24,056 nucleotides of DNA, from IMG/VR virus record IMGVR_UViG_3300025168_000655, positions 1-24,056 of that record; one strand, given 5' to 3'. Origin of the DNA: a virus. The notes under the pieces are model-generated. The model was given only the letters and a program-made list of their open reading frames with translations. It made no database searches and was not told the DNA's origin. Below, in pieces: positions 477 to 18,916 of the stretch. The position numbers were made by a program, and so were the translations under genes. Position 1 is the stretch's first letter. Every line of letters begins with the position of its first letter.

Positions 477-1088
477 CTAACATGCACATACCCCCGTATT
501 ATCACATATAATATCGCGGATTATGTTGTTTACGTTAGTATATTTGTATTCAGGTACTTGTATTTTACCTTCATTTAACCCTTTAGGGGATAAAAATGCA
601 CCTTGTGTAGATGGTGTAGAAACAAAATCAAAACATAATAAATCATAATCATCCTGTACCTCTACTGTGCCCTCTGATAAGTTATCTGACACTGAACCCA
701 TTCCACGAGATGAAATACCAATAGTGATACCTGAACCAAATAATGCTTTTAATATATTTCCGGCAGGTGTAGGTAATATTTCAACATCACCCATTACATC
801 GTCTCCATCCCACCAACATTTTAATACGTTGTGAGATACATTTTGAAGGTTAATTACTGAGCTTTCTGGATGGTCTAATTCACCTAATGCTCTTTTTTCT
901 CTAACAGGACCTTCCATATAAGATCTCATTTCTCTAGCTAAAATATCTTTTGGATAAACTCTTTCGTTTTGGTTTTTAGCATTTGCTCTTTGTAAAACAC
1001 CTGTAACAATTAATGGTTTATTTTTTCTAATAGAAGCTTCAACTAATTGTTTGTCTACTTTAAATGGTCTATATTCTGTTAAAAGCAT
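477..1088 (-). CDS. 21: Prohead (head maturation) protease, T4 gp21-like
   Basis: This is the serine protease that matures the prohead by cutting scaffold and head proteins after Leu/Ile-x-Glu. The 203-residue length fits the family (T4 gp21 is about 210). Visible landmarks are the GELDHPE block with probable catalytic His73, a second conserved His at 86 (NVSHN), and GISSRGMGSV (124-133) with probable nucleophile Ser126 or Ser127. Near the C-terminus L171-N172-E173 before Gly174 looks like a self-cleavage site, and L15-V16-E17 before Ala18 like an N-terminal one. Beyond residue 173 is an odd tail ending in four-residue-spaced cysteines (CDNTGVCAC). The gene lies 2 nt downstream of its neighbour and a short distance after portal and terminase, as in T4-like head operons. 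Family assignment is confident; the exact catalytic residues are inferred. Confidence 0.9.
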   Translation of the reverse strand: MLLTEYRPFKVDKQLVEASIRKNKPLIVTGVLQRANAKNQNERVYPKDILAREMRSYMEGPVREKRALGELDHPESSVINLQNVSHNVLKCWWDGDDVMGDVEILPTPAGNILKALFGSGITIGISSRGMGSVSDNLSEGTVEVQDDYDLLCFDFVSTPSTQGAFLSPKGLNEGKIQVPEYKYTNVNNIIRDIICDNTGVCAC

Positions 1089-2870: not shown

Positions 2871-2888
2871 AGCCTATTCCTGAGGCTT
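2870..2888 (-). promoter_or_regulatory. Stem-loop over the end of the portal gene
   Basis: On the minus strand AAGCCT and AGGCTT pair (six pairs) around a seven-base loop, spanning the portal stop codon. The following TATATTTATA is not a proper U-tract, so a terminator is possible but weak; an mRNA processing or stability element is equally possible. Confidence 0.35.
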
Positions 2889-4718
2889 AATATTTTTTTC
2901 ACTTAAAAGTCCATTTTCTTTATCCTCCTTTAAGACTTGTTTTTTATTTTTAATTTTTTGAAGAGATTTTTTAAGATTTGCAGCTTCAAATGTAGAAACT
3001 TTATTAGGTCTGTCTGGTTTTGACATAGCAAGTTTAGGATTTTTCTTACCTAAAGGGTCTCTACCAAAATTAGAATCTTGACCTCCATATTTAGTAGGAT
3101 CTTCTAATGGACGTCCTGGTTCTTTTTCATCATACCCAGTTGGTACTTGAGCTGGTCCTACTGCTTTGTCTCTTTTATTACCATACATTGAAGCTAAATC
3201 ATGAGGAGTACCATATGATATTCCAGATTCTGATGGATCATTTCCTTCATTTTCAATTTGTGAAATTCTAAAAGAATTCATTGCATCCTCAAAAAGTGTT
3301 TCTTTTTCTTCATTATATTGATCAGGTGATAAACCATATACATTTTCATAAACCCAATCTTTACTAAATAATTTACCATCTAACATTTCTTTAGCTACTG
3401 CTGTTTTTGCAGTATATAATTCAACTTTTTCTTGTTCGTAAATAATTGATGGTGTAGTTAATTCTAATTTAAAATCAACTAAATCTGCATCTTCGAACCC
3501 TTGTGAATATAAATGTACTAGTGCTATTTTAGTTAATTCTGATTCTATAATTCTTTGAATACGTTCAACTGTACGAGCAAAACGAATGTCCATACCTGCT
3601 AATGTTGACTTTCCTTCTACTCCTTCCTCATAACCTAAGAATGGTTTAGGTATTTTTAAGGCTGCCATCATTTTATGTTTTAAGTATTCAATATCTCCTG
3701 TACCATCATAGTCTAAACCTTTTGTAGTTTCAATTTTAGTAGAATTATCGTTTCCTCTTACTGGAATATAAAAATCCTCAGTAATGTTTTGCATGTTATA
3801 TTTTAGATTATAATCACCTGTTGCTTGATCTATATAAGGTGTTTTTTTCATTTTGTTAACAGTTTCTTGCATAAACTGTTCTACTTGTTCTGGTGGAATA
3901 GCTCCTACATTAATATAAAATGTTCTTTTTTCTGGTGCTCTCATAATTCTATGAATTAACATAGCATCCTCCATTAACATTAATTGTTTAAATACTTTAC
4001 GAGATGGTTCTAAATAAGATCTACCATATGGAAGATAATTAGAATCTGTAAGTAATCTAAAGTGAGCGACTTCATAATTTTCTAAACTAAATTGATCTCT
4101 TCTAATTGTGTTAGTTGCCCCTGAAGCTAAACCATTTGGGTCCATTGTAAAACGAGTGTAAGAAGGATTTTCAGGGTCTGTTCCTTCTTCTCTTACTACT
4201 TCGTATACTGATAAAGGTATAACATTATATACTCCAAACTTTTCACTTACTTCTAATTTTAAATACATATCTCCATACTTACACATATTTCTAATCCATG
4301 TAGATAAATTAAATTCTACATTTAAAACATCATAAAATAAATTTTGTAATACTTTTCTTACATTTTCATTTGAAGATTGAATATTTAAAATATCACCATA
4401 TTCATTTCTATTTGTTGTTTCATCTGAAATAATATCTAATGCAGCTGCAATAATTGGGTCATGGTCCATAGCTTCATAATCACTATAAAGCTGAAGTCGC
4501 ATTGACTGATAATTCAGTGTAGGATTATATTGTAATGATGATCCTACAGGTTTATGTAAACGAGTAAATCTATCATAAAGTGAATTAGAGGCTAGGTTTC
4601 CATATTTCTGGATCCTGCCTGTATCCATGATTTTAAGTTGTTTTCCCCCAATGTTACGAACTATAACATCGTTTGAGAATAATCTTCGTAATCTTGTAAA
4701 TAAAGTAGTATCTGCCAT
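2874..4718 (-). CDS. 20: Portal vertex protein, T4 gp20-like
   Basis: The portal forms the dodecameric ring at the unique head vertex through which DNA is packaged and ejected, and it docks terminase and neck. The sequence (614 residues; T4 gp20 is 524) shows family blocks: an early YEAMDHDPIIAAALDIISDE segment, NEYGDI, the WIRNMCKYGDMYLK block, GRSYLEPSRKVFKQLMLMEDAMLIHRI, and APEKRTFYINVG. The extra length is mostly a hydrophilic C-terminal tail from about residue 480, rich in Lys, Pro and Gly, with LLSEKN near the end. It follows terminase after 21 nt. In T4 the sheath and tube genes (18, 19) lie between 17 and 20; here they do not, so the tail genes have been moved. Assignment is confident. 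Confidence 0.95.
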   Translation of the reverse strand: MADTTLFTRLRRLFSNDVIVRNIGGKQLKIMDTGRIQKYGNLASNSLYDRFTRLHKPVGSSLQYNPTLNYQSMRLQLYSDYEAMDHDPIIAAALDIISDETTNRNEYGDILNIQSSNENVRKVLQNLFYDVLNVEFNLSTWIRNMCKYGDMYLKLEVSEKFGVYNVIPLSVYEVVREEGTDPENPSYTRFTMDPNGLASGATNTIRRDQFSLENYEVAHFRLLTDSNYLPYGRSYLEPSRKVFKQLMLMEDAMLIHRIMRAPEKRTFYINVGAIPPEQVEQFMQETVNKMKKTPYIDQATGDYNLKYNMQNITEDFYIPVRGNDNSTKIETTKGLDYDGTGDIEYLKHKMMAALKIPKPFLGYEEGVEGKSTLAGMDIRFARTVERIQRIIESELTKIALVHLYSQGFEDADLVDFKLELTTPSIIYEQEKVELYTAKTAVAKEMLDGKLFSKDWVYENVYGLSPDQYNEEKETLFEDAMNSFRISQIENEGNDPSESGISYGTPHDLASMYGNKRDKAVGPAQVPTGYDEKEPGRPLEDPTKYGGQDSNFGRDPLGKKNPKLAMSKPDRPNKVSTFEAANLKKSLQKIKNKKQVLKEDKENGLLSEKNIKPQE

Positions 4719-4732
4719 TCTTGTTGTTTTTA

Positions 4733-4744
4733 ATACATATTAAA
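4733..4744 (-). promoter_or_regulatory. TTTAATATGTAT motif at terminase/portal junction
   Basis: This 12-mer includes the terminase stop codon and recurs identically at 6338-6349 over the stop of the next upstream gene. Here it also sits in an inverted repeat (TTAATA, two bases, TATTAA; 4730-4743). Possible promoter or coupling signal; unproven. Confidence 0.25.
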
Positions 4745-6332
4745 GAAGCCAGGTTAAATCTTGTTGTCCTTTATCTTCTCCTAAATCCATAGTCCAACCT
4801 GCTTGTTTTTTGTTTATTCCTCCAGTATAAATAGTGGGCGCACTTCGTTGCCAGTTTTTTAAGGCTGCCCTTGTTATATCAATTCCTTGTTGTGCAAATT
4901 TAAGTGCTGTATCTCTAACATAACATGCTGTTGCTAAAGACATTACTAAATCATCATTATACCCCATTTGAGCTTCTGCTCTTCCATTTTTCCAAACAAA
5001 AGTTCGCATTTCTTCTAATGTTCTTTTACCTTGAATTGTAATTGATTTTTCTCTTAAATATGCGTCTAATTTTCCTATTGTTAATGGTCTTGTTTTCATT
5101 GACATTGTAAAACCAGGAACCATTTTTGTTGTGTCTGTTATATCATACCCTTTAGCTAAGAAAGAATCTGCGTTTGTTGCTGCATCTCCTTTAGGTGAAT
5201 AATATAAATTTTGATAACCTTTATCTATTACTACTTGAATTGTATTCCAACCTATATTTGCATTTTCAATTACAAGTAATGCATTATTATATTCGGTAGC
5301 AATTGAAACTAACATATGTCCAAATTCTTTAGTACCAATTTGTGCTTTAAATTCACCAATTTGTTTTGAATCCTCAATGTCTATAATATGAAAAGCAGAA
5401 TAATCTTTACTATCTCCTCTAGCTACATCAGCTGTTATCATATAGTTTCTTGAATAGTCTGGATATTCCCAAATATGTAATCCTCCTTCTATACCTCTTC
5501 TTTCTATAGGATCACATATGTTTGTTTCTTCAATAAATTTCATTATTTCTGATTCAAACACAGTATTACCAGAAGTTGTAAAATCACAATCACATTCTTG
5601 TGCTGCCATTCTTAAACCTAACTCATCATCCTGTTTATTTCTCCATTCTTGGTTTCTTTCTGGGTGTACTGTCCAGTGTAGTTTAATAGGAGTAAATCCA
5701 TTGGTTCCTTCTTCTGCTTTATTCCACATTCTGTGAAAAAAGTTACCTGTTCCGTTAGGTGTTGATAAAACAATTGCTTTACCCCCCGTTGATAATGTTT
5801 GTTGTGATGAACCCCAAATTTCTTCAATTCGATTTTCTTCAATAAAAGCAGCCTCATCTACAATTAGTAAAGAAATTGCTTCTGATCTACCAGCATCACT
5901 TGCCGCAGATACTGCTTTTACTTGGGAACCGTTTTTAAGTCTTAGTGCTAATTTATTATTTTCTGTAAATCCAATTTGTAACCAAGATGGTAAATTGTCA
6001 TACATAAATTTTACTTTTGTTACTAGATTTTTTGCCGTATCTTGTTTTGTTGCAACAACTAATATTGATTTGTCTTTTTGAAATACCATCATCCATAAAG
6101 AAATACCTGCGGATAAGGTTGAAATTCCTAATTGTCTAGATTTAAGAATAATACTTCTGTCATTCTTTTGAAGTAATTTTAATGTGCCTTCTTGAAATGG
6201 ATATAAATTAAATTGAACACGTCCCCTTGTTGGATGTTGAATCCAACAATATTTCCTCATAAAATAAACAGGATCTTGAGCACATTTAATGTACTCTTGT
6301 TTTATTATTTGTTTTATATTAGATTGTGCCAT
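4740..6332 (-). CDS. 17: Terminase large subunit, T4 gp17-like
   Basis: The DNA-packaging motor and headful nuclease, acting at the portal. Residues 1-60 lead into the ATPase domain: Walker A-like SRQLGIST at 65-72 (the non-classical form seen in gp17), a block LVVATKQDTAKNLV around 91-104, Walker B LLIVDEAA at 155-162 with Glu160, and coupling motif LSTPNGTGNFF at 189-199. The nuclease domain begins near 295 with MITADVARGDSKDYSAFHI, whose Asp residues fit the RNase H-like metal site; a later Asp pair (GYNDDLVMSLA) fits the last acidic ligand. At 530 residues it is shorter than T4 gp17 (610). It starts 12 nt after the P-loop gene and is followed by portal. No small subunit (gp16) was recognised in the window. 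Confidence 0.96.
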   Translation of the reverse strand: MAQSNIKQIIKQEYIKCAQDPVYFMRKYCWIQHPTRGRVQFNLYPFQEGTLKLLQKNDRSIILKSRQLGISTLSAGISLWMMVFQKDKSILVVATKQDTAKNLVTKVKFMYDNLPSWLQIGFTENNKLALRLKNGSQVKAVSAASDAGRSEAISLLIVDEAAFIEENRIEEIWGSSQQTLSTGGKAIVLSTPNGTGNFFHRMWNKAEEGTNGFTPIKLHWTVHPERNQEWRNKQDDELGLRMAAQECDCDFTTSGNTVFESEIMKFIEETNICDPIERRGIEGGLHIWEYPDYSRNYMITADVARGDSKDYSAFHIIDIEDSKQIGEFKAQIGTKEFGHMLVSIATEYNNALLVIENANIGWNTIQVVIDKGYQNLYYSPKGDAATNADSFLAKGYDITDTTKMVPGFTMSMKTRPLTIGKLDAYLREKSITIQGKRTLEEMRTFVWKNGRAEAQMGYNDDLVMSLATACYVRDTALKFAQQGIDITRAALKNWQRSAPTIYTGGINKKQAGWTMDLGEDKGQQDLTWLL

Positions 6333-6337
6333 ATATT

Positions 6338-6349
6338 ATACATATTAAA
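6338..6349 (-). promoter_or_regulatory. TTTAATATGTAT motif before terminase start
   Basis: Identical to 4733-4744 and likewise overlapping the preceding gene's TAA stop, followed by AATAT and the terminase ATG. It could be a promoter-like or translation-coupling signal, or reflect the repeated TAATAT after stops in this region. Confidence 0.25.
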
Positions 6350-6863
6350 CTACAGCATTCTTAACTTGCTCTATACGTTCTTCTACAGTACCACTAATTG
6401 TAATTGTATCATTTCTGTACATTCCTACTATTTCTTTTATTTTTTTATCAACTGCTTCTCTATATTCTGCATTTGTTTCTCTAACTCCATTATCTTCTAT
6501 TTCTACTCCTTCAGGAGAAACATAAAATAAAATATCATATTCATCTATTAAATAATATAAAGTTGCATTTAAATAAAATTTTTCATGATCTTTCATTGAT
6601 TCAGACAAATCAGCAAATGCCATAACATCAATTACTGTTCTGTCAGTTATGATTTTTTCTTGCATTAATTCAGCTGATCTTTCAGAAGCAAAAACTAATT
6701 GTCCCTTTAATGTACTGTCTGTGTTTAAAGGTATTCCTAAATTCATTAAATGTTTTGAACGTTCTGTTCTAAAATGATAATCTTTAAATTCAGGTAATTC
6801 TTTTAATGCATTTACTAATGTAGTTTTTCCTACACTCATTGTTCCACAAAATCCTATTTTCAT
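6345..6863 (-). CDS. P-loop ATPase/kinase, NadR-kinase-like (AAA_28 type)
   Basis: A 172-residue single-domain P-loop protein. Walker A is GTMSVGKTT at 7-15, directly after the first beta strand (MKIGFC). An RTERSKH segment and IITDRTVIDVMAFAD (a probable Walker B strand with Asp) follow, then YDILFYVSP and a C-terminal helix after a VRETNAEYREAVD loop. This layout fits the NadR C-terminal ribosylnicotinamide kinase/AAA_28 group, which phosphorylates small nucleosides, but the substrate cannot be read from sequence. It lies between a small unknown gene and terminase. The 1215-residue protein at 13889-17536 begins with an NMN-adenylyltransferase-like domain, so the two together could resemble a split NadR-type NAD salvage pair. 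A deoxynucleoside or other kinase is the alternative. Confidence 0.75.
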   Translation of the reverse strand: MKIGFCGTMSVGKTTLVNALKELPEFKDYHFRTERSKHLMNLGIPLNTDSTLKGQLVFASERSAELMQEKIITDRTVIDVMAFADLSESMKDHEKFYLNATLYYLIDEYDILFYVSPEGVEIEDNGVRETNAEYREAVDKKIKEIVGMYRNDTITISGTVEERIEQVKNAVV

Positions 6864-9073: not shown

Positions 9074-9469
9074 TTAATTTTGATTTGTTTTTCTATAATT
9101 TTTCATCCAATCTTCCCAATCTCTAAAAAGAAGATTTCCTTTTAAATATGCTTCCATTTCCATTTTTCTCATATGTTGATCATCTTGAGCGTATGTTGGG
9201 CTAGAAGCGTCTCCCATTTTTAAATCACCTCTTTCATTTTGAACGTGATGAATTAATTCGTGTGCAAATGATCTACAAATGTCTTTATCGTGTCTGTTTG
9301 TTATGTACAATACAATAGACATATTTGAAGGATCATAATAAGCTGTTTTGCCAAAGATGCCTTGAGCATTTTCTTCATCATGTTTTAACTGAAGTTTTGG
9401 AGTGTTTTGAATGTCAAATTGCTCCCTTGCTTTTTTAAATATTTCTCCTAAGGCTTCTTTTAATTCCAT
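9074..9469 (-). CDS. Zinc metallopeptidase-like protein (HExxH zincin)
   Basis: A 131-residue protein with the zincin motif H70-E71-L-I-H74, extended as SFAHELIHHVQNERG. Glu104 or Glu106 in RKMEMEAY, about 32 residues later, is a plausible third zinc ligand, as in gluzincin-like minimal peptidases. No signal peptide is present, so the protein acts in the cytoplasm, is packaged, or crosses through the holin. The start overlaps the stop of the upstream gene (TAATG), indicating coupling. Next to a holin-like gene it could be the lytic peptidase, but it could equally process a virion or host protein. A metallopeptidase role is fairly secure from the motif; the substrate is unknown. Confidence 0.75.
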   Translation of the reverse strand: MELKEALGEIFKKAREQFDIQNTPKLQLKHDEENAQGIFGKTAYYDPSNMSIVLYITNRHDKDICRSFAHELIHHVQNERGDLKMGDASSPTYAQDDQHMRKMEMEAYLKGNLLFRDWEDWMKNYRKTNQN

Positions 9470-9906
9470 TATACTGGTTCTTCTTCAGCTGGTTCTTCAG
9501 GTTCCATTTCTGTATCTTCTCCTCCACTTTCTGTATCTCCCCCTGTATCTCCTGTTTCCGTGTCTTCTTCTGCTCCTTTGGTTGGGATTGGTAGAGTTAA
9601 TAATCTATTCATTGCTTTAATAGCTTCAGCTGTTTCATCTCCATTCATTAACCAATAAGATTTAGATCCTATTTTAGCTACTATAGATGTTTGTTCAATA
9701 TATAAATCAAGATACTGATTATTATGAAAAAATACTCTATATGATGGTGGTACTGAATTTACTGCTTTTAAAGTAGCTACATACCTTATAAGAGGTCTTA
9801 ATTTAAGATCGTATTTTAAAGCTTTAACTATTTCTGGGGGAGCAGGATAATTTGCTTCCATCAGAGATTTAATTTCTTTTTTTATATATTCTCTAAGTAA
9901 TTTCAT
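9469..9906 (-). CDS. Candidate internal head protein with CTS-like leader and acidic tail
   Basis: A 145-residue protein of unknown family. The first 17 residues are basic and amphipathic and end L15-M16-E17 before Ala18, close to the T4 capsid-targeting leader that is cut by the prohead protease. The body (about 18-112) mixes helix and strand. The C-terminus from about 115 is a low-complexity tail rich in Glu, Asp, Thr and Gly (EEDTETGDTGGDTESGGEDT), ending in acidic-Pro repeats. Acidic tails of this kind occur in DNA-mimic or scaffold proteins. It lies 2 nt after the 104-residue gene and overlaps the zincin start. Packaging is an inference. Confidence 0.7.
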   Translation of the reverse strand: MKLLREYIKKEIKSLMEANYPAPPEIVKALKYDLKLRPLIRYVATLKAVNSVPPSYRVFFHNNQYLDLYIEQTSIVAKIGSKSYWLMNGDETAEAIKAMNRLLTLPIPTKGAEEDTETGDTGGDTESGGEDTEMEPEEPAEEEPV

Positions 9907-10229: not shown

Positions 10230-11618
10230 TTATTTTTTATTTTCGTTAAATAACCCAGAAGCTAGTTGTTTTTTTTCTTCCATGCCTCCCTCCATACCTC
10301 CTTCCATTCCAGTTACTGTTGGTTGTATTGTTTCAAATCCTTCTGCTTCTTTATCTGCTAATGTAAGATCTAATTTTGTTTTTCTAAGAGCTTCCCAGTT
10401 ATTTCTAAGTTTAGCAATAAAAGATTCAGGCATATCTACTCTTTGTTGTAAATAAATAGATCTTACTTCTGCATCTGTTTTACCTGCATTGAATAATTTA
10501 AATAATTTTTGAGTAGCGCCTTCCATTAATGTTGCTCTTTTTCTATATTTGTCCATATGCTCCATTAAATTATCATCGCCTCTTTCTTTAATGTAAGCTT
10601 CCATAAAATCTTTTGCATCATCAACCCCCATTGCTATGTCATCTTGAGATTGATTTTCATCTTCATCTTCTTCAGGAGTTATTTCATTTACTTGGTAAGT
10701 TTTACCATCTAATTTAAATGAATTTTCTCCTGAGTCTTTAGCTTTTTGCATAGCACCTCCAAATGCATTTCCTTCATCTGGTTCTTCTTCTAAAGGGGTT
10801 ACAGCTTTTACATTTGTTGCTGCTACTTTACTCTTTGCAGTTGCGTCATCTTTATCAGAGAAAAAAAACTCTCCTCCTTTAGTATCAGTACCTTTATACA
10901 TTTTCATTTCTTTTGTAGTTTTTTTCATTTTATTTTCTTTTATAGGTTTATCTTTAAGTTGACCTAAATTTAATTTTAATTTATTTCCGCTTTCTAATGA
11001 TTTTAACGTTAATACATATCCTGAATTCTCAATTACTTTATATCTTGTACCACTATAAGTTACTGTTTTACCTGGTTGTAATTTTGGATTGTCTGTTAGT
11101 TCTTTATTTTCATCCATTGTTTTAGGCATTATCCATAAATGAATACTACCATGAACACCTGCTCGAGAGTGGTCTGTTATTTCGTAATCTTCTATTTGAT
11201 CTTGGAATTTAGTGTATGTTTTAAGTGCTGCTGCTTTTGCTGCTGCTTTAGATTTTTCAATCTTCATACTTACATCTTTACCAAACATTGCCCCTGTGTA
11301 ATCAGGACCATTATAGTGTGGAAATAAAATCCTAAATCCTCCTGTTCTTTTGTCAGGGTGAGTTGAAACACCTTTCATTGTGTCTACAAGTTCCATATGA
11401 TATTGGTCTGCATAATTTAACATGTCAGAAGATAATGTGCCTTGAGTTTCCATCATACCAGTTCCTGTTCTTTTTGGTTTAGCTGAGAAGGGATATTCGT
11501 CTGTAGGTACTGAAACTTTTGTACCAGTTGATAATTGGCTTGGTTGTTCGCGATTACCATAAAATGTATTTTCTTTAACTACATTTTTAACTAATTGTAT
11601 GATGTCTTTCTTTTTCAT
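10230..11618 (-). CDS. Large multi-segment candidate internal head/scaffold protein
   Basis: A 462-residue, highly charged protein of unknown family. The N-terminus MKKKDIIQLVKNVVKEN has the basic leader ending Val-x-Glu seen in neighbours. A more ordered part spans about 60-165 (FRILFPHYNGPDY, DHSRAGVHGSIHLWIMP), followed by a strand-rich segment around 183-220. Next comes an acidic linker (about 275-335; EEDEDENQSQDD). A helical C-terminal part begins after L364-M365-E366 before Gly367, a good prohead-protease site. The end carries a short repeat of Met-Glu-Gly-Gly (437-447). Length, charge and possible cleavage sites suggest a scaffold-like or packaged protein. I do not recognise a homologue with known function. 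Confidence 0.7.
   Translation of the reverse strand: MKKKDIIQLVKNVVKENTFYGNREQPSQLSTGTKVSVPTDEYPFSAKPKRTGTGMMETQGTLSSDMLNYADQYHMELVDTMKGVSTHPDKRTGGFRILFPHYNGPDYTGAMFGKDVSMKIEKSKAAAKAAALKTYTKFQDQIEDYEITDHSRAGVHGSIHLWIMPKTMDENKELTDNPKLQPGKTVTYSGTRYKVIENSGYVLTLKSLESGNKLKLNLGQLKDKPIKENKMKKTTKEMKMYKGTDTKGGEFFFSDKDDATAKSKVAATNVKAVTPLEEEPDEGNAFGGAMQKAKDSGENSFKLDGKTYQVNEITPEEDEDENQSQDDIAMGVDDAKDFMEAYIKERGDDNLMEHMDKYRKRATLMEGATQKLFKLFNAGKTDAEVRSIYLQQRVDMPESFIAKLRNNWEALRKTKLDLTLADKEAEGFETIQPTVTGMEGGMEGGMEEKKQLASGLFNENKK
10281..10311 (-). repeat. Short in-frame repeat encoding Met-Glu-Gly-Gly
   Basis: Imperfect tandem units encode GMEGGMEGGMEE near the C-terminus of the 462-residue protein (residues about 437-448). 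The array is short and may vary in copy number by slippage. Confidence 0.6.
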
Positions 11619-11620
11619 TT

Positions 11621-11881
11621 TTAAAATCTTACTTGTTTTTGACTGTTAGGATTGCCCATAGCTGATTTTTCCATTCCTCTTGTTTGCATTCCTTGTCCTC
11701 CCTCTCCTGCATTTTGGTTATTATAAAATTCAATTTCATCTTCATCAGTCTTAAAAGAACCTCCAGGAGCTCTTTGAGAAGTAATATTATTACCATCAGT
11801 AGCATTTCCACCACTAGCTCCTGTACCTGTGTATTCTTTGATAGTATTTCTAATTAATTCTCTAAGTTCTTTTTTAGTCAT
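11621..11881 (-). CDS. Small disordered protein with CTS-like leader
   Basis: An 86-residue protein. Residues 1-16, MTKKELRELIRNTIKE, are a basic amphipathic helix ending Ile-Lys-Glu before Tyr17, like T4 capsid-targeting leaders and like short leaders I recall in marine T4-like phage proteins. The rest is Gly/Asn/Gln-rich and likely disordered (GTGASGGNATDGNN, NQNAGEGGQG). It overlaps the upstream zinc-ribbon gene by 8 nt and is followed by the 462-residue gene after 2 nt. If the leader is removed in the prohead, the mature part would be about 70 residues, comparable to small T4 internal proteins. No known family. Confidence 0.65.
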   Translation of the reverse strand: MTKKELRELIRNTIKEYTGTGASGGNATDGNNITSQRAPGGSFKTDEDEIEFYNNQNAGEGGQGMQTRGMEKSAMGNPNSQKQVRF

Positions 11882-12478: not shown

Positions 12479-13657
12479 TTAGCTTACGTCCATAAAATCA
12501 TTATGACTAGCTTCTATTCCTAATTCTTCTAATCTTTCTACTATTAAATCTAAATCTTCTAAACCTGAAATGTATTTTCTTGGTATTAAATCATCTTCAT
12601 GAATATATTCTAAAATACCTTTTAACCATTTATTAGCTTCATCATATTTTAATTTGTCTGAACGTTGTTTTTGATCTTTATTTTCATAAACGTCTAATCC
12701 ATAAAAACGGCCTCCTTGTTCAGTGTATACAAATGTTACTTTTTGGTATTGGTTTGATTCTTCATTTAAATATCCTAATTCAGCAGCTTTTTTCTTTAGT
12801 GATTTTTCTTTATCCATCATTTGTTTGATCTTCATAATCTTATCTTTTTCTGGATGTTGGTTTAAGCGTTCTTTTTCTTTAGCATCTGCCCATTCTTCAG
12901 GACTCATACCTTCTCTATATATTGGAGCGGGATTTGTAGGACCATAAGTTGTTGATTGTTTACTTATTTTAATAATGGAATTGTTTTTATTATTTTCTAT
13001 ATCTTTTGCATCTGGACAATCATCCTTTTTATCTTCCCTAGGTCTTTTTTGATGAATTTTTTTTATGCTATCAATACGTGCTTGAAGGTAATTGTGTTCG
13101 TTTTCTTTACCTAATTCTCTTGCCCTTTTATTAATAATTTGAACTATTTCTTCTGCACATTTAACCTGAGCTTCTGAAGCTGATTTATCATCTAATGCTA
13201 TTTTTTCCATAACAAATAACCTTTCATGTTGTATAGCTGCAGATCGTAATATATCTAACATTTTTGGGTTATCTTTAAATGTTTTATTTTGTAGTTCTGT
13301 GTATAATTTAATGGCCTCAGGACTTATATCAAACATTTTTACCTCAAATTCTTTATCTTTAGGGCCTATAAAGGGGTATTTTTTAGGACCGTCTGTTTCT
13401 TTTTTATCATCTTTTTCCTCAGGTTTTTCATCAGGTTTATCTACAGGGGGTTTTGGATCTTTATTATCACCGGGGCCTTCTAAATTATCATCATAAGAAA
13501 TCATTGGTGTTTCTTTACCACTTGGACTTACAGCTGTATATCTTGTTACTGTTCTTCCGTCAGGTAATTTTTCTTTTTTTTCTGAGCCGGGTTTAACTTC
13601 TTCTTTCAGACCATGTTTATGTTCTGTTAGCCACTTTATATAGTTAAATTTTTTCAT
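12479..13657 (-). CDS. Lys/Asp/Glu-rich candidate internal head protein
   Basis: A 392-residue protein of unknown family. The start MKKFNYIKWLTEHKHGLKEE has Leu-Thr-Glu and Leu-Lys-Glu close to the N-terminus, compatible with a prohead-protease leader. A Pro/Asp/Lys-rich low-complexity linker (about 58-95, PKPPVDKPDEKPEEKDDKK) is followed by a helical domain (about 105-210). After another charged stretch comes a C-terminal domain from about 305 (VTFVYTEQGGRFYGLDVYEN) with mixed strand and helix. LNEES at about 297 is another potential site between parts. It lies 2 nt after the 72-residue gene. Role unknown; the layout of separate parts joined by charged linkers resembles its neighbours. Confidence 0.7.
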   Translation of the reverse strand: MKKFNYIKWLTEHKHGLKEEVKPGSEKKEKLPDGRTVTRYTAVSPSGKETPMISYDDNLEGPGDNKDPKPPVDKPDEKPEEKDDKKETDGPKKYPFIGPKDKEFEVKMFDISPEAIKLYTELQNKTFKDNPKMLDILRSAAIQHERLFVMEKIALDDKSASEAQVKCAEEIVQIINKRARELGKENEHNYLQARIDSIKKIHQKRPREDKKDDCPDAKDIENNKNNSIIKISKQSTTYGPTNPAPIYREGMSPEEWADAKEKERLNQHPEKDKIMKIKQMMDKEKSLKKKAAELGYLNEESNQYQKVTFVYTEQGGRFYGLDVYENKDQKQRSDKLKYDEANKWLKGILEYIHEDDLIPRKYISGLEDLDLIVERLEELGIEASHNDFMDVS

Positions 13658-13888: not shown

Positions 13889-16800
13889 TTATATTTTATT
13901 TTCTCTAAATCCTGTTTGCATTCCCCCTAATATAAATTTACCTGTTATCTTAAAAGGTACATCTGCTATGTTTTTATCTCTTATTACTACTCCTTCATGG
14001 TTTTCAACTGAACCCATTGGTGAATCTAATACTTTAAGTATTTCGTCTCCTAATTTTTCAGTTGCAAGATAAGTTGTAAAACCCTCTATGGCTTTTATCT
14101 TATCATCTTCATCTTTAAATAATTCGTCTATATTACCTCCATTTAATAAAGCCATATAAACTTGTTTACCAACTGCAGGTCTTTTTATTCCCCCCATAAA
14201 TATAGAAGCTTCTTCGGGGATGTTATTTAATTCACTTAACCATCTATCTAAAGATTGTGATTTATCTCCTTCATTAGATTTTATAGTATAATTTTTAGAA
14301 AGTGCAGATCCAAAATTAGGTTTTTTAGTCATTTCTGTTTCAACTGAACCATAAACTTCAAAGCCTCTTTTTTTAGCTGTTGGTGTTAAATTATTTAATA
14401 ATGACTGGAGTGCATTTTTATCATAAGGCATTTCAGTAGATTTTCTTTTTGATAGTATTTTTCCTGTTTTTGCACTTGGTTCATTTACCATCTCTATTTT
14501 ATTTAATCCATGAATAGCTATAAAATTAGATTCATATTTTTGTACGTTAGTTTTACCACTAACATACTCCATATTAAATAGTATGTTTGGATCTTCCCAC
14601 GCCCCTAATTTTTCTAAATCACTTTTTAAAGAAGGTAATGCTTCATTAAACATATCTAATACGTCTCCCCCTGTTTTAATAAAACCATGAATACTTCCGT
14701 CTTTTGTTTTAAATCTATTTTCTAAATCTGATTTTGTAACACCTTTTATATCAAGAGCTTGTTTAGAACCTCTATCTAAAGCAAATTGTTTTTTACCATC
14801 TATATCAACTAAACGAATAGAACTATTTACTCCGTCTATTTTAACAGCACCTGGGTTTTTTTCTAACGAAACTGCTGCTTTTTCAATAACATCTTTTAAA
14901 TCTTTACCTGAATTAACAAAGGATAAATTAAAAGGATGAGCCATATGACCTGCTGCTCCTCCTTCTGTTAGAAGGTGTTCCTTTATTATATTTGTCCACC
15001 AATCTTTTGAGAATAATTTTGATTCATTTATATTAATGTTTGATTCTCCCGTAGAATATTTTTTTCCGTTATTTATATGAAATTGTGCTTTTTTCGGATT
15101 ATTTGTTAATAATTGTTTATATTTATATTCAATATCCAATGCTTTGTCAGATAATACACCTATATTATGCATTTCTGTAGTAGGTTCTATTAATTCTAAA
15201 TACATGTTTTTCACTTCTATTAAAAACTCATTTGTAGGATCATTTTTTAAATCTTCATGTACTAAGGATAATATAGCTTGATAATATTCTTTATTAGTTT
15301 TAATATCATCTATCATTATTACTTGATCTAAAAACTTAATTGTATCTGTGTCTGTAGTTTGAGCAGACACACTACTAGCTACTGCTAATGTTATTGCTAA
15401 TGTTAGTAATCCTTTTTTACTATAATTTTTAATTTTATCTAATATATTTTTCATAACTATTTCTTGTAAATCATTTGTATTTCCTATAATATCATCTACT
15501 ATTGCTTTTTCTTTATTTGAGAGTCCTTCTGTCATTTCTAAATTTTCTGGTGAGTCTTCTTTAAAATATGTGTGATAAAAATAATTTAAAGCATCTAATT
15601 TTTCCCCTGTTAGTTTTTGTTTTAATCTTGCATATGTTTCTTCTGCATCTGGAGTGTCTAGTTTTTTAACTAAATCTGCATATAAAGCCCAATATTTTAA
15701 TTCATGGTCTTCCATTTCATATAACTTTCTTGTAAGTGTACCTTTTACATAATTGGGTACTTTATAACCACCTCCTCCATAGTTATTTCCCTTCATGTTA
15801 GACATATCTTTATTTAAACGTTTCATATTTTTAGCATGTTTGGCTTTTTCTTGTTTATTCATCATACCCATCATTTCACTTAAATTTTCTACTTCATAAG
15901 GTATGCCTTTTTCTTTAAGTAAAGATTCTATTTCAGGGAAAGAATTAGGAATTATAACCTTAATAATATATTTATCCAAATTACTAATATCTCTATCTAC
16001 TCTTTCTTCATATTCATCAATTTCCTGACCTGTTTCAGGGTTGATCATGTCTGGGTGAAAATCACGATATGGTCTTATTTTATAATTTTGGGATAATTTA
16101 TCCCCATCAATAACTAAAATAATTAAATCATCACCTCCCCCAAACCACATCTTTAAATCATTATTCATAACTCGAGTAAAACTTATGGATGGTGGGTTAT
16201 TCGAGGCCTTTAATTTGTTTTGTTTAATTATATTTTCTATATCAAAAAGGTCAGCATAATGATATAATGTACCTACTTGTTTACCTTCATTTAATTCTCT
16301 TACTGCTGCTGGATCTTCTACTGTTAATTTTATGTCTGGATATTTGTCTTTTAAAGCAGATACAGCTGTTCTATTTTCTTCTGAATCATCAATAAAATAA
16401 ATTGTTTTATAACCTTTATTTATGTGGTTTTCTATCCAATCTGCTTTGTCTTGTCCTGTTACTTTACCATCTACTTGTAATCCTAAAGGGACAACGTAAG
16501 CAGCTAATCCTAATTCTTCTCTCATATATCGAGTAACTGGATGTCCTATAGAACGGGCTGTTAGTATGGTTGTTTTTACTTCTGATCTGCTTAGTGAGTC
16601 TTTTAATTTATTTACAACTTTACTATTTACAATAGCATCATCTATTTGTTTTTCAAATTCAGAAAAATTATATTTTATTTCTAAACTACCTAATCTTGCT
16701 TCTAATGCTTTACTTTCTTCAGGAAAATTTTCAGCAGGTATTAGTATTTCTTTATTATAGTCCCCATTAGGACTAGTTATAGTTGTTCTAATGTTAGCTT

Positions 16801-17536
16801 TTACTCTAGCTATTGTATCGTCAAAATCATAAGCATGTAAAGTTTTTCCTTTTTCATCTGCTTCATACATTGTTCCTGCTCCCCCTTGTCCTGAAGCAGC
16901 ACTATATTGTCCCCCTCTTCTATATTTGTATCCAGGGGTAATATCATCTGGTTTTGTATAACCCGCTTTATATTCGCTACTTTTAGCAAAGTCGTAATAA
17001 TGGTCGTTTGGGTCGTATAAATCTTCATTTAAACCTATTACTATATTCCAAGCTTTATCTTTATCTATGTGGTTAGGTATTCCTTTTTTAAATAATTCTT
17101 TATCATCAGATTGAACAAATCCCCTCATATCAGTACCTGATATTCCTCCTCCTTGTGGTTTTATTAATTTAATTTTAAATGTAATGTCCCTAGGTTCAGC
17201 AAATTTACCTATGTTTGCATAACGTTGATCGCTTGAATCTTTTTCACCCATTCCTAAGTAAACTGTAGATCCTTCTGGTGCTTCTTTTTCTATAAAATCA
17301 TACACATCTCTTACGGGAGAAATCCCTGCTGGTCTAATTTCTAACCCTAAATCGTTTTGTGTATAAAGTTTCCATAAGTTAATAGACATAACTTGAGTAA
17401 TACCGTCTCTTTCTTTAGGCCCAACAAATATTATTAATTTATCTGCTTTAGACTCTGCAAAGAATTTTAGAGCCATATCATAATGACCAACATGGGGTGG
17501 TTTGAATCCACCAGGTAAAAGTGCGATTTTTGACAT
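13889..17536 (-). CDS. Multidomain protein: NMNAT-like + HAD + ART-like + ligase-type nucleotidyltransferase (probable polyprotein)
   Basis: 1215 residues. (a) 1-165: cytidylyltransferase/NMNAT-like domain with GGFKPPHVGH (His15, His18) and ISGTDMR (132-138). (b) About 230-410: HAD phosphatase, DFDDT at 237-241, LTAR near 325, FIDDSEEN at 381-388. (c) About 419-550: LYHYADLFDIENIIKQ, ISFTR, VIDGDKLS and EYEERV, resembling ADP-ribosyltransferase/Tpt1-fold phage proteins; moderate support. (d) 590-660: helical. (e) 695-726: signal-peptide-like segment ending Ser-Ala-Gln. (f) 859-1215: ligase-type nucleotidyltransferase with K899-I-D-G, MEYVSG (motif III), EGVVIR 1181-1186 (motif IV) and K1196-x3-K1200 (motif V); its start GGAAGHMAHPF is a conserved T4-like phage block. 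Possible prohead-protease sites fall at 225, 417, 670, 838 and 858. Adenylate transfer is likely; substrates (NAD, RNA ends) are inferred. The start follows a TATATTTATA element. Confidence 0.88.
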   Translation of the reverse strand: MSKIALLPGGFKPPHVGHYDMALKFFAESKADKLIIFVGPKERDGITQVMSINLWKLYTQNDLGLEIRPAGISPVRDVYDFIEKEAPEGSTVYLGMGEKDSSDQRYANIGKFAEPRDITFKIKLIKPQGGGISGTDMRGFVQSDDKELFKKGIPNHIDKDKAWNIVIGLNEDLYDPNDHYYDFAKSSEYKAGYTKPDDITPGYKYRRGGQYSAASGQGGAGTMYEADEKGKTLHAYDFDDTIARVKANIRTTITSPNGDYNKEILIPAENFPEESKALEARLGSLEIKYNFSEFEKQIDDAIVNSKVVNKLKDSLSRSEVKTTILTARSIGHPVTRYMREELGLAAYVVPLGLQVDGKVTGQDKADWIENHINKGYKTIYFIDDSEENRTAVSALKDKYPDIKLTVEDPAAVRELNEGKQVGTLYHYADLFDIENIIKQNKLKASNNPPSISFTRVMNNDLKMWFGGGDDLIILVIDGDKLSQNYKIRPYRDFHPDMINPETGQEIDEYEERVDRDISNLDKYIIKVIIPNSFPEIESLLKEKGIPYEVENLSEMMGMMNKQEKAKHAKNMKRLNKDMSNMKGNNYGGGGYKVPNYVKGTLTRKLYEMEDHELKYWALYADLVKKLDTPDAEETYARLKQKLTGEKLDALNYFYHTYFKEDSPENLEMTEGLSNKEKAIVDDIIGNTNDLQEIVMKNILDKIKNYSKKGLLTLAITLAVASSVSAQTTDTDTIKFLDQVIMIDDIKTNKEYYQAILSLVHEDLKNDPTNEFLIEVKNMYLELIEPTTEMHNIGVLSDKALDIEYKYKQLLTNNPKKAQFHINNGKKYSTGESNININESKLFSKDWWTNIIKEHLLTEGGAAGHMAHPFNLSFVNSGKDLKDVIEKAAVSLEKNPGAVKIDGVNSSIRLVDIDGKKQFALDRGSKQALDIKGVTKSDLENRFKTKDGSIHGFIKTGGDVLDMFNEALPSLKSDLEKLGAWEDPNILFNMEYVSGKTNVQKYESNFIAIHGLNKIEMVNEPSAKTGKILSKRKSTEMPYDKNALQSLLNNLTPTAKKRGFEVYGSVETEMTKKPNFGSALSKNYTIKSNEGDKSQSLDRWLSELNNIPEEASIFMGGIKRPAVGKQVYMALLNGGNIDELFKDEDDKIKAIEGFTTYLATEKLGDEILKVLDSPMGSVENHEGVVIRDKNIADVPFKITGKFILGGMQTGFRENKI
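15359..15454 (-). other. Internal signal-peptide-like segment, possible internal start
   Basis: Residues 695-726 of the 1215-residue protein begin with Met-Lys, have a basic region (KIKNYSKK), a hydrophobic core GLLTLAITLAVASSV and end Ser-Ala-Gln, the pattern of a Bacteroidetes signal peptide. Bases before this ATG (AAGAAATAGTT) are A-rich, like real starts here. It may be a relic of gene fusion, an internal start for an exported protein, or a membrane anchor. Confidence 0.6.
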
Positions 17537-17567: not shown

Positions 17568-18491
17568 CTAAGACAAGGCTAGCCTTTTTTTCATCAATAT
17601 AGAGATTGTAAGTTCTGTTGCGTTATGGAGTAATTTTGTAAAGGTTTTAAAACCAAGTTCGGAAGGATCCTTATCTCCCATTTCTATAAGATAAACTCGC
17701 TTTCCATAAGACATAAAGGTTTCAGCATGGTTAAAAGCATCTTTTAAAGCGTCTTCATCTAATGCAAGATAAATTTTTTCTACGTTACTTTTAATAATTT
17801 TTTTCATTAAGGTTGTAGATAATTTCTTTCCAAACAAAGGAATTGCATTACGTTTTATAGCCATTGCATCGAACGCACCTTCGCACAAAATCACGGGTAA
17901 ATCCCAGTTTATATACATTTCAAACCCAATTATGTCCTTGGTACTGGAAGCTAATTTATGTTTAATATACGCGTTTTTATCAAACGAACGACCTACATAA
18001 TAATTTAAAAAACCATCTTTATCATATGAAGGAATTACAACCATATTTTTTAATGGTCCTTCCTCACAATAATGTAAATCATATTTAACTACATCTTGTT
18101 GTGTAATTCCTCTTTGATTTAAATAATGTAATGCGTGTTTTGATAAAACGGCAGAACTAGACATTATAGGTGTAACTTCTTTAGGTAGCTGTAAAGTGTT
18201 AGGATCAACTTTTTGTTTAACTTTCGATTTAAAATTATATTGATTATCGATTTCTTTTAAAGCCCCAAATGCAGCTCCAGGAGCATTAGCCTTTTTAAGT
18301 AATTGAAAAGCTCTATGACCTTTATAATTACAAACCCAACATTGAAATTTTTGGGATAAAAGGTTAAATGTTAATTTATTCTTGTGATGATTACAAGAAG
18401 GACATTTAAAAACAGCCTCATCACCCCCTCGAGCAGATTTACTTCTTCCTAAAATCGATTCGAGTAATTTTTTTAATAAATCTTCTTTCAT
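17568..18491 (-). CDS. 61: DNA primase, T4 gp61-like (zinc finger + TOPRIM)
   Basis: Makes RNA primers at the replication fork with the gp41-type helicase. The N-terminus is a zinc ribbon, C30-x2-C33 and C51-x2-C54, with the spacing of primase zinc fingers. The TOPRIM domain shows LCEGAFDAMAIKR (Glu204-Gly) and LALDEDA (Asp245, Asp247), the metal-binding acidic residues. At 307 residues it is a little shorter than T4 gp61 (342). The gene overlaps the upstream GIY-YIG-like gene by 4 nt (ATGA). It lies inside a block of structural genes instead of beside helicase and polymerase genes, none of which are in the window. Confidence 0.92.
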   Translation of the reverse strand: MKEDLLKKLLESILGRSKSARGGDEAVFKCPSCNHHKNKLTFNLLSQKFQCWVCNYKGHRAFQLLKKANAPGAAFGALKEIDNQYNFKSKVKQKVDPNTLQLPKEVTPIMSSSAVLSKHALHYLNQRGITQQDVVKYDLHYCEEGPLKNMVVIPSYDKDGFLNYYVGRSFDKNAYIKHKLASSTKDIIGFEMYINWDLPVILCEGAFDAMAIKRNAIPLFGKKLSTTLMKKIIKSNVEKIYLALDEDALKDAFNHAETFMSYGKRVYLIEMGDKDPSELGFKTFTKLLHNATELTISILMKKRLALS

Positions 18492-18916
18492 TTAAAATCT
18501 CTGTCGTAAAACTTACCTAATATGTTGTCATTAAGATATTGTTTGTTTTCTAAAACTTCAAACACAAATTGATATTTACATTCTAAATATGTGAGTTCCT
18601 TTTTATTGTAGGCAATCTTTAGTATTTTTCTATGTAAATCGTAATCATGTGCTTCTTTAATAAAACTGTGAGAACCATAGTAAGTTTTCCAATCGCTTTC
18701 CTTTAATACTCTCTTAAATGTTGGTGGGCGACCTTTACCTTCATATAGGGCTTTTTCTTTTTTGCCTAATTTTTTCTTTAAATTGTAAATTAAAGATTTT
18801 TTACCAATGTATTTTTTTCCCGTTGGTAAGTGAGTTGTTTGATAAATAAAACCAAATGCATCTTTTGGGAGATCACTAATTTCTTGTATAACTTTGTCTT
18901 TATAGTTCCATTGCAT
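18488..18916 (-). CDS. GIY-YIG-like endonuclease (Seg-like)
   Basis: A 142-residue protein with GFIYQTTHLPTGKKYIGKK (about 22-40), which carries the two parts of the GIY-YIG motif as GFIY and KYIG. A conserved SDWKTYYGSH block and the acidic TYLECKYQF helix (a probable metal-binding Glu) follow, then YLNDNILGKFYDR. This is the short nuclease family often annotated as Seg-like in T4-like phages. It lacks an evident DNA-binding extension. Its ATGA overlap with primase shows stable integration into the operon, which argues for a DNA-metabolism role rather than an invading homing element, though homing cannot be excluded. Confidence 0.8.
   Translation of the reverse strand: MQWNYKDKVIQEISDLPKDAFGFIYQTTHLPTGKKYIGKKSLIYNLKKKLGKKEKALYEGKGRPPTFKRVLKESDWKTYYGSHSFIKEAHDYDLHRKILKIAYNKKELTYLECKYQFVFEVLENKQYLNDNILGKFYDRDFK

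Follow-up and report, generated by a model that had tools for sequence, protein, structure and literature searches.

The prohead protease gp21 of phage T4 cleaves after L/I-x-E; it removes capsid-targeting leaders of 10-19 residues from the internal proteins and cuts Alt, an injected ADP-ribosyltransferase (ART), at ITE-6 and LTE-619 (PMC9026906, PMC5694885). With Asp in place of the glutamate, T4 capsid-targeting sequences are no longer processed (PMC9026906). The literature on polyvalent proteins already likens them to the polyproteins of RNA viruses and proposes that zincins embedded in them bring about release (PMC5512222; review PMC9503650). The stretch of viral DNA analysed here (24,056 nucleotides, IMG/VR record IMGVR_UViG_3300025168_000655, positions 1 to 24,056; "the window" means all of it) covers the region of head genes in a T4-like phage; those for prohead protease, portal and terminase lie on the minus strand, as do the holin-like genes. 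It also holds a minus-strand gene for a 1215-residue protein of unusual construction. We consider it probable, at roughly three chances in four, that this open reading frame (ORF) encodes a head-packaged cargo precursor that is cut at its module junctions by the phage's own S77-type prohead protease and delivered on infection.

The ORF is a single uninterrupted frame starting with ATG, and 13 relatives were found in a first scan. An assembly artefact is ruled out as its origin by the many independent contigs that carry relatives and by a related gene in the cultured Flavobacterium phage immuto. A sequence-only reading had described the protein as a fusion of four domains, of NMNAT, HAD, ART and ligase type. 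All four motif sets do lie in one frame where they had been placed, and most of their residues are invariant among relatives. That description is incomplete, since at least four further segments without known domain (residues 172-225, 555-607, 608-670 and 671-838) and a 20-residue amphipathic element (839-858) make the protein a string of about nine modules (a slash marks a predicted cleavage site).

13889..17536, minus strand: polyprotein gene, 1215 amino acids
17024..17536, minus strand: NMNAT/cytidylyltransferase-like module, residues 1-171, ending LNE171 (breakpoint at 171, 9 alignment edges)
16862..17023, minus strand: linker module, residues 172-225, ending MYE225/A (breakpoint near 227)
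16286..16861, minus strand: HAD phosphatase-type module, residues 226-417, ending LNE417/G (breakpoint at 415)
16286..16288, minus strand: codon of Glu417, P1 of the cleavage site predicted ahead of the ART-like module
15875..16285, minus strand: ART-like module (predicted DarT/Tpt1-like fold), residues 418-554, ending LSE554
15716..15874, minus strand: basic MMGMMNKQEKAKHAKN module, residues 555-607, ending LYE607, common to many relatives
15527..15715, minus strand: MEDHELKYWALYADLVKKLD module, residues 608-670, ending MTE670/G
15023..15526, minus strand: module containing a hydrophobic stretch that resembles a signal peptide, residues 671-838, ending INE838/S (from sequence)
14963..15022, minus strand: amphipathic capsid-targeting-like element SKLFSKDWWTNIIKEHLLTE, 20 residues, 839-858, ending LTE858/G
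14963..14965, minus strand: codon of P1 Glu858, the best-supported predicted cleavage site
13892..14962, minus strand: ligase-type (KxDG) C-terminal module beginning GGAAGHMAHPF, residues 859-1215

The boundaries of these modules coincide more often than expected with [LIVM]xE, which resembles the L/I-x-E motif of the T4 head protease gp21. Of 71 non-redundant polyproteins 69 show module breakpoints, 526 in all; 36% of these lie within 3 residues of [LIVM]xE, against 10% expected (z 20); once similar contexts are removed, 57 of 204 (28%) still do so, again against 10% (z 8). The control motifs [LIVM]x(D/K/N), [AGS]xE and [KRN]xE show no excess at breakpoints. Of the unique contexts of the ART module, 54 of 57 have the motif immediately upstream (and 55 of 57 have G, A or S at P1'), and of those of the ligase-type module 36 of 39 read [LIVM]xE/GG at the junction; the first position of the motif at these two junctions is nearly always L or I. 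A glutamate is found 5-10 residues upstream of the HAD module in 24 of 28 contexts. In the window copy the boundary sites are E171, E225, E417, E554, E607, E670, E838 and E858, five of which (225, 417, 670, 838, 858) are followed by the canonical A, G or S. The nearest breakpoint clusters to E838 lie at 810-833, so that this site is 5 residues from the nearest. In marine relatives nearly all GG-ligase modules, like those of the Pfam family DUF6267 (PF19782) that can take their place, are preceded by FSK(D/N)WW..LxE. The signal-peptide-like stretch within residues 671-838 reads MKNILDKIKNYSKKGLLTLAITLAVASSVSAQ (window 15359-15454), and the freshwater relatives L049 and L059 have a different membrane-helix module.

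The argument rests on where the motif lies and not on how often it occurs: the protein has 23 copies of [LIVM]xE against 22.2 in shuffled sequence, and enrichment by count alone is rejected. The functions of the domains carry little weight in it. Junction codons vary (GAA or GAG for glutamate, five codons for leucine), which places the constraint on protein rather than on DNA and rules out a DNA-level recombination site. At the junctions the glutamate and the P3 residue are retained while the flanks are replaced, and breakpoints end at these sites. It is this retention that makes it unlikely that the ORF encodes an uncleaved polyvalent effector, injected from the virion as one polypeptide, with its [LI]xE junctions being relics of the leaders of fused genes; relic leaders should decay. 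The proposition does have precedents: proteins with ARTs and a shuffled set of domains, thought to be injected, are already recognised as the polyvalent class (PMC5512222, PMC9503650), and the N4 virion RNA polymerase is packaged unprocessed.

The same modules also occur as single genes with leaders of roughly 8-25 residues that end at an [LIVM]xE site. The sequence-only reading had proposed a search for phages in which its domains are separate genes, and such genes exist for the ART and the ligase-type modules. About 30 single genes for ART-like proteins were found, nearly all with a leader of 10-25 residues (for example, MIKLIDLLNE/AKQVGTLYHFT). A ligase-type single gene begins MIKLKSLIPEAYNVASKTVKSLLLE/GGAGGHM and one for DUF6267 begins MKNFKLYFEHYLELIEE/AKANTHL. 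Three leaderless ligase-type single genes (L072-L074) start exactly at M-GGAAGHM, which is the predicted mature N-terminus. N-terminal leaders are also found on some polyproteins (L101, L111, L115, L169, L215, L218, L227 and L235). In a relative of 181 kb, nine genes of eight unrelated families have in common the leader MIKL(K/R/V)(D/N)(I/L)L, which is how a targeting sequence should be expected to look. In that genome [LIVM]xE[GAS] occurs 6.4 times per 1000 at residues 5-30 of genes against 3.4 further in, and the controls [LIVM]xD and [LIVM]xK show no such N-terminal rise. The nine genes with this leader (contig of L059 (G010), 100653-169062; pieces L241 and L244) encode mostly proteins of unknown function and provide a list of candidate injected proteins.

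The protease proposed to cut these sites is encoded in the window.

477..1088, minus strand: prohead protease, Peptidase_S77 of the T4 gp21 family, proposed to process the polyprotein (PF03420, 7e-29; phrog_207, 3.7e-50)

Of 24 records that bear a polyprotein or are related, 15 have an S77 protease, as have 7 of the 8 contigs above 100 kb that carry an ART. The major capsid proteins of these phages have LVTE/A or LVNE/A near the position of T4 gp23 cleavage, as aligned by eye. On one contig without detectable S77 protease, the ART leader is MKVFSRLKIQS/A, of a type common to four neighbouring genes, and on a second, LVLS/A precedes the ART module, with S in place of E. The type of leader thus seems to depend on the maturation system of the phage that carries it, on a small number of contigs that may be incomplete. 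At L180:3006-5187, in a contig with no S77 protease detected, the leader MKVFSRLKITS/A stands on several unrelated neighbouring genes, and its form suggests another head-targeting dialect. Virions of the T4-like cyanophages S-SZBM1, S-SCSM1, S-CREM2 and S-CBWM1 are reported to contain NMNAT/cytidylyltransferase (PMC10665884, PMC9602691, PMC9146016). In S-SZBM1, the gene annotated as cytidyltransferase starts MRFRQFIIE/A and adjoins a DUF6267 gene; we take it to encode the cytidylyltransferase that the authors detected in virions.

Processing by a zincin metallopeptidase instead of the prohead protease has been proposed for other polyvalent proteins by Iyer et al., and the window does contain a stand-alone gene of this type.

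9074..9469, minus strand: zincin-like metallopeptidase (SFAHELIHH; weak match to DUF6782)

The same zincin type recurs as a module inside the polyproteins L101, L215, L227 and immuto gp088. We nonetheless hold zincin processing to be very improbable, as it is gp21 that recognises L/I-x-E, a zincin is missing from many polyproteins, and single genes with leaders carry the same site.

The order of modules is far from fixed. The 38 complete non-redundant polyproteins among the IMG/VR relatives have 32 domain architectures, in which modules are gained, lost, relocated or swapped and HAD and ART are kept or dropped independently. ART follows HAD in the window copy, lies within the NMNAT-linker region in L010 and elsewhere in L013, and is absent from most. 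The C-terminal slot usually holds the ligase-type module or DUF6267, and DUF192, SET, cupredoxin, zinc ribbon and zincin modules are found in other relatives. One feature of polyvalent proteins, the union of at least two biochemically disparate domains in a single phage polypeptide, is present here; a second, injection along with the genome, is predicted from the head-gene context. The proposal of the sequence-only reading, that a single fused enzyme for repair or NAD restoration has its domains cooperating in a pathway, is scarcely credible in the face of this variety (HAD and ART are often absent; DUF192, SET and cupredoxin modules are present), even with NMNAT, Tpt1/DarT-fold ART, HAD and ligase-type domains together in the window copy and a NadR-kinase-like AAA_28 gene nearby. 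Its joining of NAD and nucleic-acid end chemistry in one protein is probably wrong, given that the modules shuffle and the ligase-type module is swapped for DUF6267.

As we envisage it, the precursor would be made late and brought into the prohead by capsid-targeting elements of the T4 type, where the S77 (gp21-type) protease would cut after [L/I/V/M]-x-E at the module junctions. Cleavage would free the NMNAT-like, HAD, DarT/Tpt1-like ART, ligase-type and small accessory modules as separate enzymes, which would remain in the head and enter the host together with the DNA, as T4 Alt and the internal proteins do. There they would most likely serve to counter defences early and to take over the host, NAD+ supply and ADP-ribosylation being among their roles. 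Because the protease would free each module, module order would hardly matter; junctions would then tolerate shuffling and the gene could evolve as an array of exchangeable cassettes. We lean, by a little, toward the more general proposition that aquatic T4-like phages have such a cassette-array gene with prohead-protease sites as connectors, in which modules bounded by [LI]xE/(G/A/S) are swappable, released in the head and injected, and in which the dialect of leader and site follows the head protease of the lineage.

Several observations weigh against cleavage and packaging. The motif is loose, as its near-random count implies. Three of the eight window junctions have unusual P1' residues (D, M and M), and about two thirds of alignment breakpoints lie more than 3 residues from a motif, though BLAST edges drift. 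Breakpoints taken from related proteins are in part dependent. The window copy, like most marine relatives, begins directly at NMNAT without a leader and has only the internal element, so that targeting of the NMNAT module would need to rely on an internal element, and the targeting sequences of T4 are N-terminal. The authors of the cyanophage studies caution that NMNAT may be a contaminant of CsCl-purified virions.

The N-terminal module is securely placed by its sequence in the HIGH superfamily of nucleotidyltransferases (NMNAT/PPAT). It has PPHVGH at residues 13-18 and ISGTDMR at 132-138, and in an alignment of 37 sequences H18 and R138 are invariant and H15 is not. Its profile matches PPAT and NMNAT chains in the PDB (best 1.6e-7, PPAT scoring highest), and the NCBIfam NMNAT models fall far below cut-off. 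The HxGH/ISxTxxR motifs recognised by the sequence-only reading are thus confirmed at superfamily level; with PPAT and NMNAT as the best PDB relatives, NMN is a possible substrate. The HAD module has the complete phosphatase signature: DxDxT (D237-F-D239-D-T241), the T/S of motif II (T326-A-R328), the lysine of motif III (K364) and the DD of motif IV (D383-D384-S). These are invariant in 13 sequences except for the second D of DFDDT (alignment A6, invariant columns D8, D10, T12, T97, K135, D154 and D155); a sequence search of the PDB returned no relative.

The ART-like module has LYH at 424-426, S452/T454/R455 and E508/E510/E511. In 57 aligned sequences L7, Y8, R38, E93 and E94 are invariant and H9 and E91 are conserved at 90% or more; H, R and E among these columns are candidate counterparts of the NAD-site H and R and the catalytic E of DarT. 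An AlphaFold model of residues 418-552 (predicted local distance difference test score, pLDDT, 89) has the DarT/Tpt1-like ART fold as judged by Foldseek, in agreement with the Tpt1-type fold suggested earlier: Tpt1 and DarT are the best matches (7yw4, E 7.7e-4; DarT 7omx, E 1.2e-3), at probability 1.00 and a query template-modelling score (TMq) of about 0.6, with 7yk3 and 8tfi also at probability 1.00. The likeness to DarT, Tpt1(KptA) and Tox-ART-HYD1 lies in the fold of these residues and the positions of conserved H, R and E; the structural matches to DarT and Tpt1(KptA) have just 11-19% identity. Pfam Tox-ART-HYD1 is matched by 18 of the 57 relatives. A first PDB search with a profile of 8 sequences gave no match, nor did a search for the module in cultured phages.

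The C-terminal module has the motifs K899-I-D-G, D921-R-G-S, E990-Y-V, E1181-G-V-V-I-R and K1196, invariant or nearly so in 31 sequences; the invariant alignment columns are K41, D43, G44, E323, G324, R328 and K338 (KxDG, EGxxxR and the motif V lysine). Of the complete ligase core claimed earlier, the catalytic residues are conserved, and the second lysine of KxxxK is outside the invariant columns. Foldseek found no significant match to the model of this region (pLDDT 88): the ten best, mostly RNA or DNA ligases, are below threshold at E 0.12-0.3 and template-modelling scores of 0.15-0.26, and a PDB sequence search found none. We therefore call the module ligase-type and not a ligase; despite the conserved catalytic residues the fold-level case is weak when judged by the refuting condition that the sequence-only reading had set. 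The motifs KWDG, EGxVA and KLVxR are invariant in DUF6267 (L002:6042-7190 and other loci), which is likely another covalent nucleotidyltransferase. Beyond the KxDG motif, hhalign gives a probability of only 0.9% for homology between DUF6267 and the GG-ligase. In S-PM2 (L015:6554-7726) the C-terminal part of DUF6267 is fused before a cytidyltransferase, in the order opposite to that in the window; a separate frame encodes its N-terminal part. A literature search for DUF6267 by name found no papers.

Other genes of the window are as follows.

2874..4718, minus strand: portal protein, part of the head module
4740..6332, minus strand: large terminase, 58% identical to that of Flavobacterium phage immuto (closest)
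9469..9906, minus strand: gene with capsid-targeting-like leader MKLLREYIKKEIKSLME/A
10230..11618, minus strand: gene with leader MKKKDIIQLVKNVVKE
11621..11881, minus strand: gene with leader MTKKELRELIRNTIKE
12479..13657, minus strand: gene with leader MKKFNYIKWLTE

Since its terminase is closest to that of a cultured Flavobacterium phage, the phage likely has an aquatic host among the Bacteroidota. At 6345-6863 lies a P-loop kinase of the AAA_28 family, with a weak match to phrog_3462, a phage NMNAT, in its kinase portion; it is possibly a NadR-like ribosylnicotinamide kinase, in which case nicotinamide riboside could be turned into NAD by this enzyme and the NMNAT-like module together. A SegE-type GIY-YIG endonuclease is found at 18488-18916. 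The PHROG label for its family is "NAD synthetase", a name also given to a gene near the immuto polyprotein; the label looks like a misannotation.

If the precursor is processed as proposed, one gene would deliver a changing set of injected enzymes. The injected proteins of T4-like phages, for the most part without known function, could then be recognised by a simple sequence test: the presence of [LI]xE/G/A/S between domains or in the first 30 residues or so. The recurrent NMNAT-like proteins of cyanophage virions would be explained, and DarT/Tpt1-like ARTs and ligase-type enzymes would act in the first minute of infection, when counter-defence is decided. The related polyprotein of cultured phage immuto opens the proposal to test.

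T4 IPI-III and Alt resemble this family in their short leaders, L/I-x-E sites, nearby S77 protease and ART cargo; in T4 there is one cargo per gene, whereas the window family strings together many modules with internal sites. The likeness to polyvalent proteins, as far as the sources used describe them (Iyer, Burroughs and Aravind 2017; 2022), lies in unrelated enzymatic domains in one polypeptide, common ARTs, shuffling and predicted injection. In contrast, those sources propose release by embedded zincins and describe neither prohead-protease junction sites nor single-gene modules with capsid-targeting leaders, nor an NMNAT-to-ligase/DUF6267 family. A search on polyprotein, prohead protease and phage found no account of such a cleavage-linked array in the literature so covered; the prohead protease as releasing enzyme, its site as module connector and the leader-bearing single-gene modules appear to be new. 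The Kyanoviridae (S-SZBM1, HTVC008M, Melnitz) have homologous or analogous modules in their adjacent cytidyltransferase and DUF6267 genes, with leaders ending IIE/A, LVE/D or ITE/D and NMNAT-like proteins in virions of related phages, but these are separate genes, not a polyprotein, with little or no shuffling seen in this analysis. The cultured relative immuto gp088 (YP_010114595.1), annotated just as NMN adenylyltransferase, is a 907-residue NMNAT-containing mosaic with [LIVM]xE/(G/A) junctions (E286/A, E496/G, E565/G, E702/G) and lies, like the window ORF, between primase and terminase genes; its modules differ (an N-terminal unknown domain, zincins). A cassette array of this kind, if that is what these genes are, would be to phages what polyproteins are to RNA viruses, and would parallel the cassettes of polymorphic toxins.

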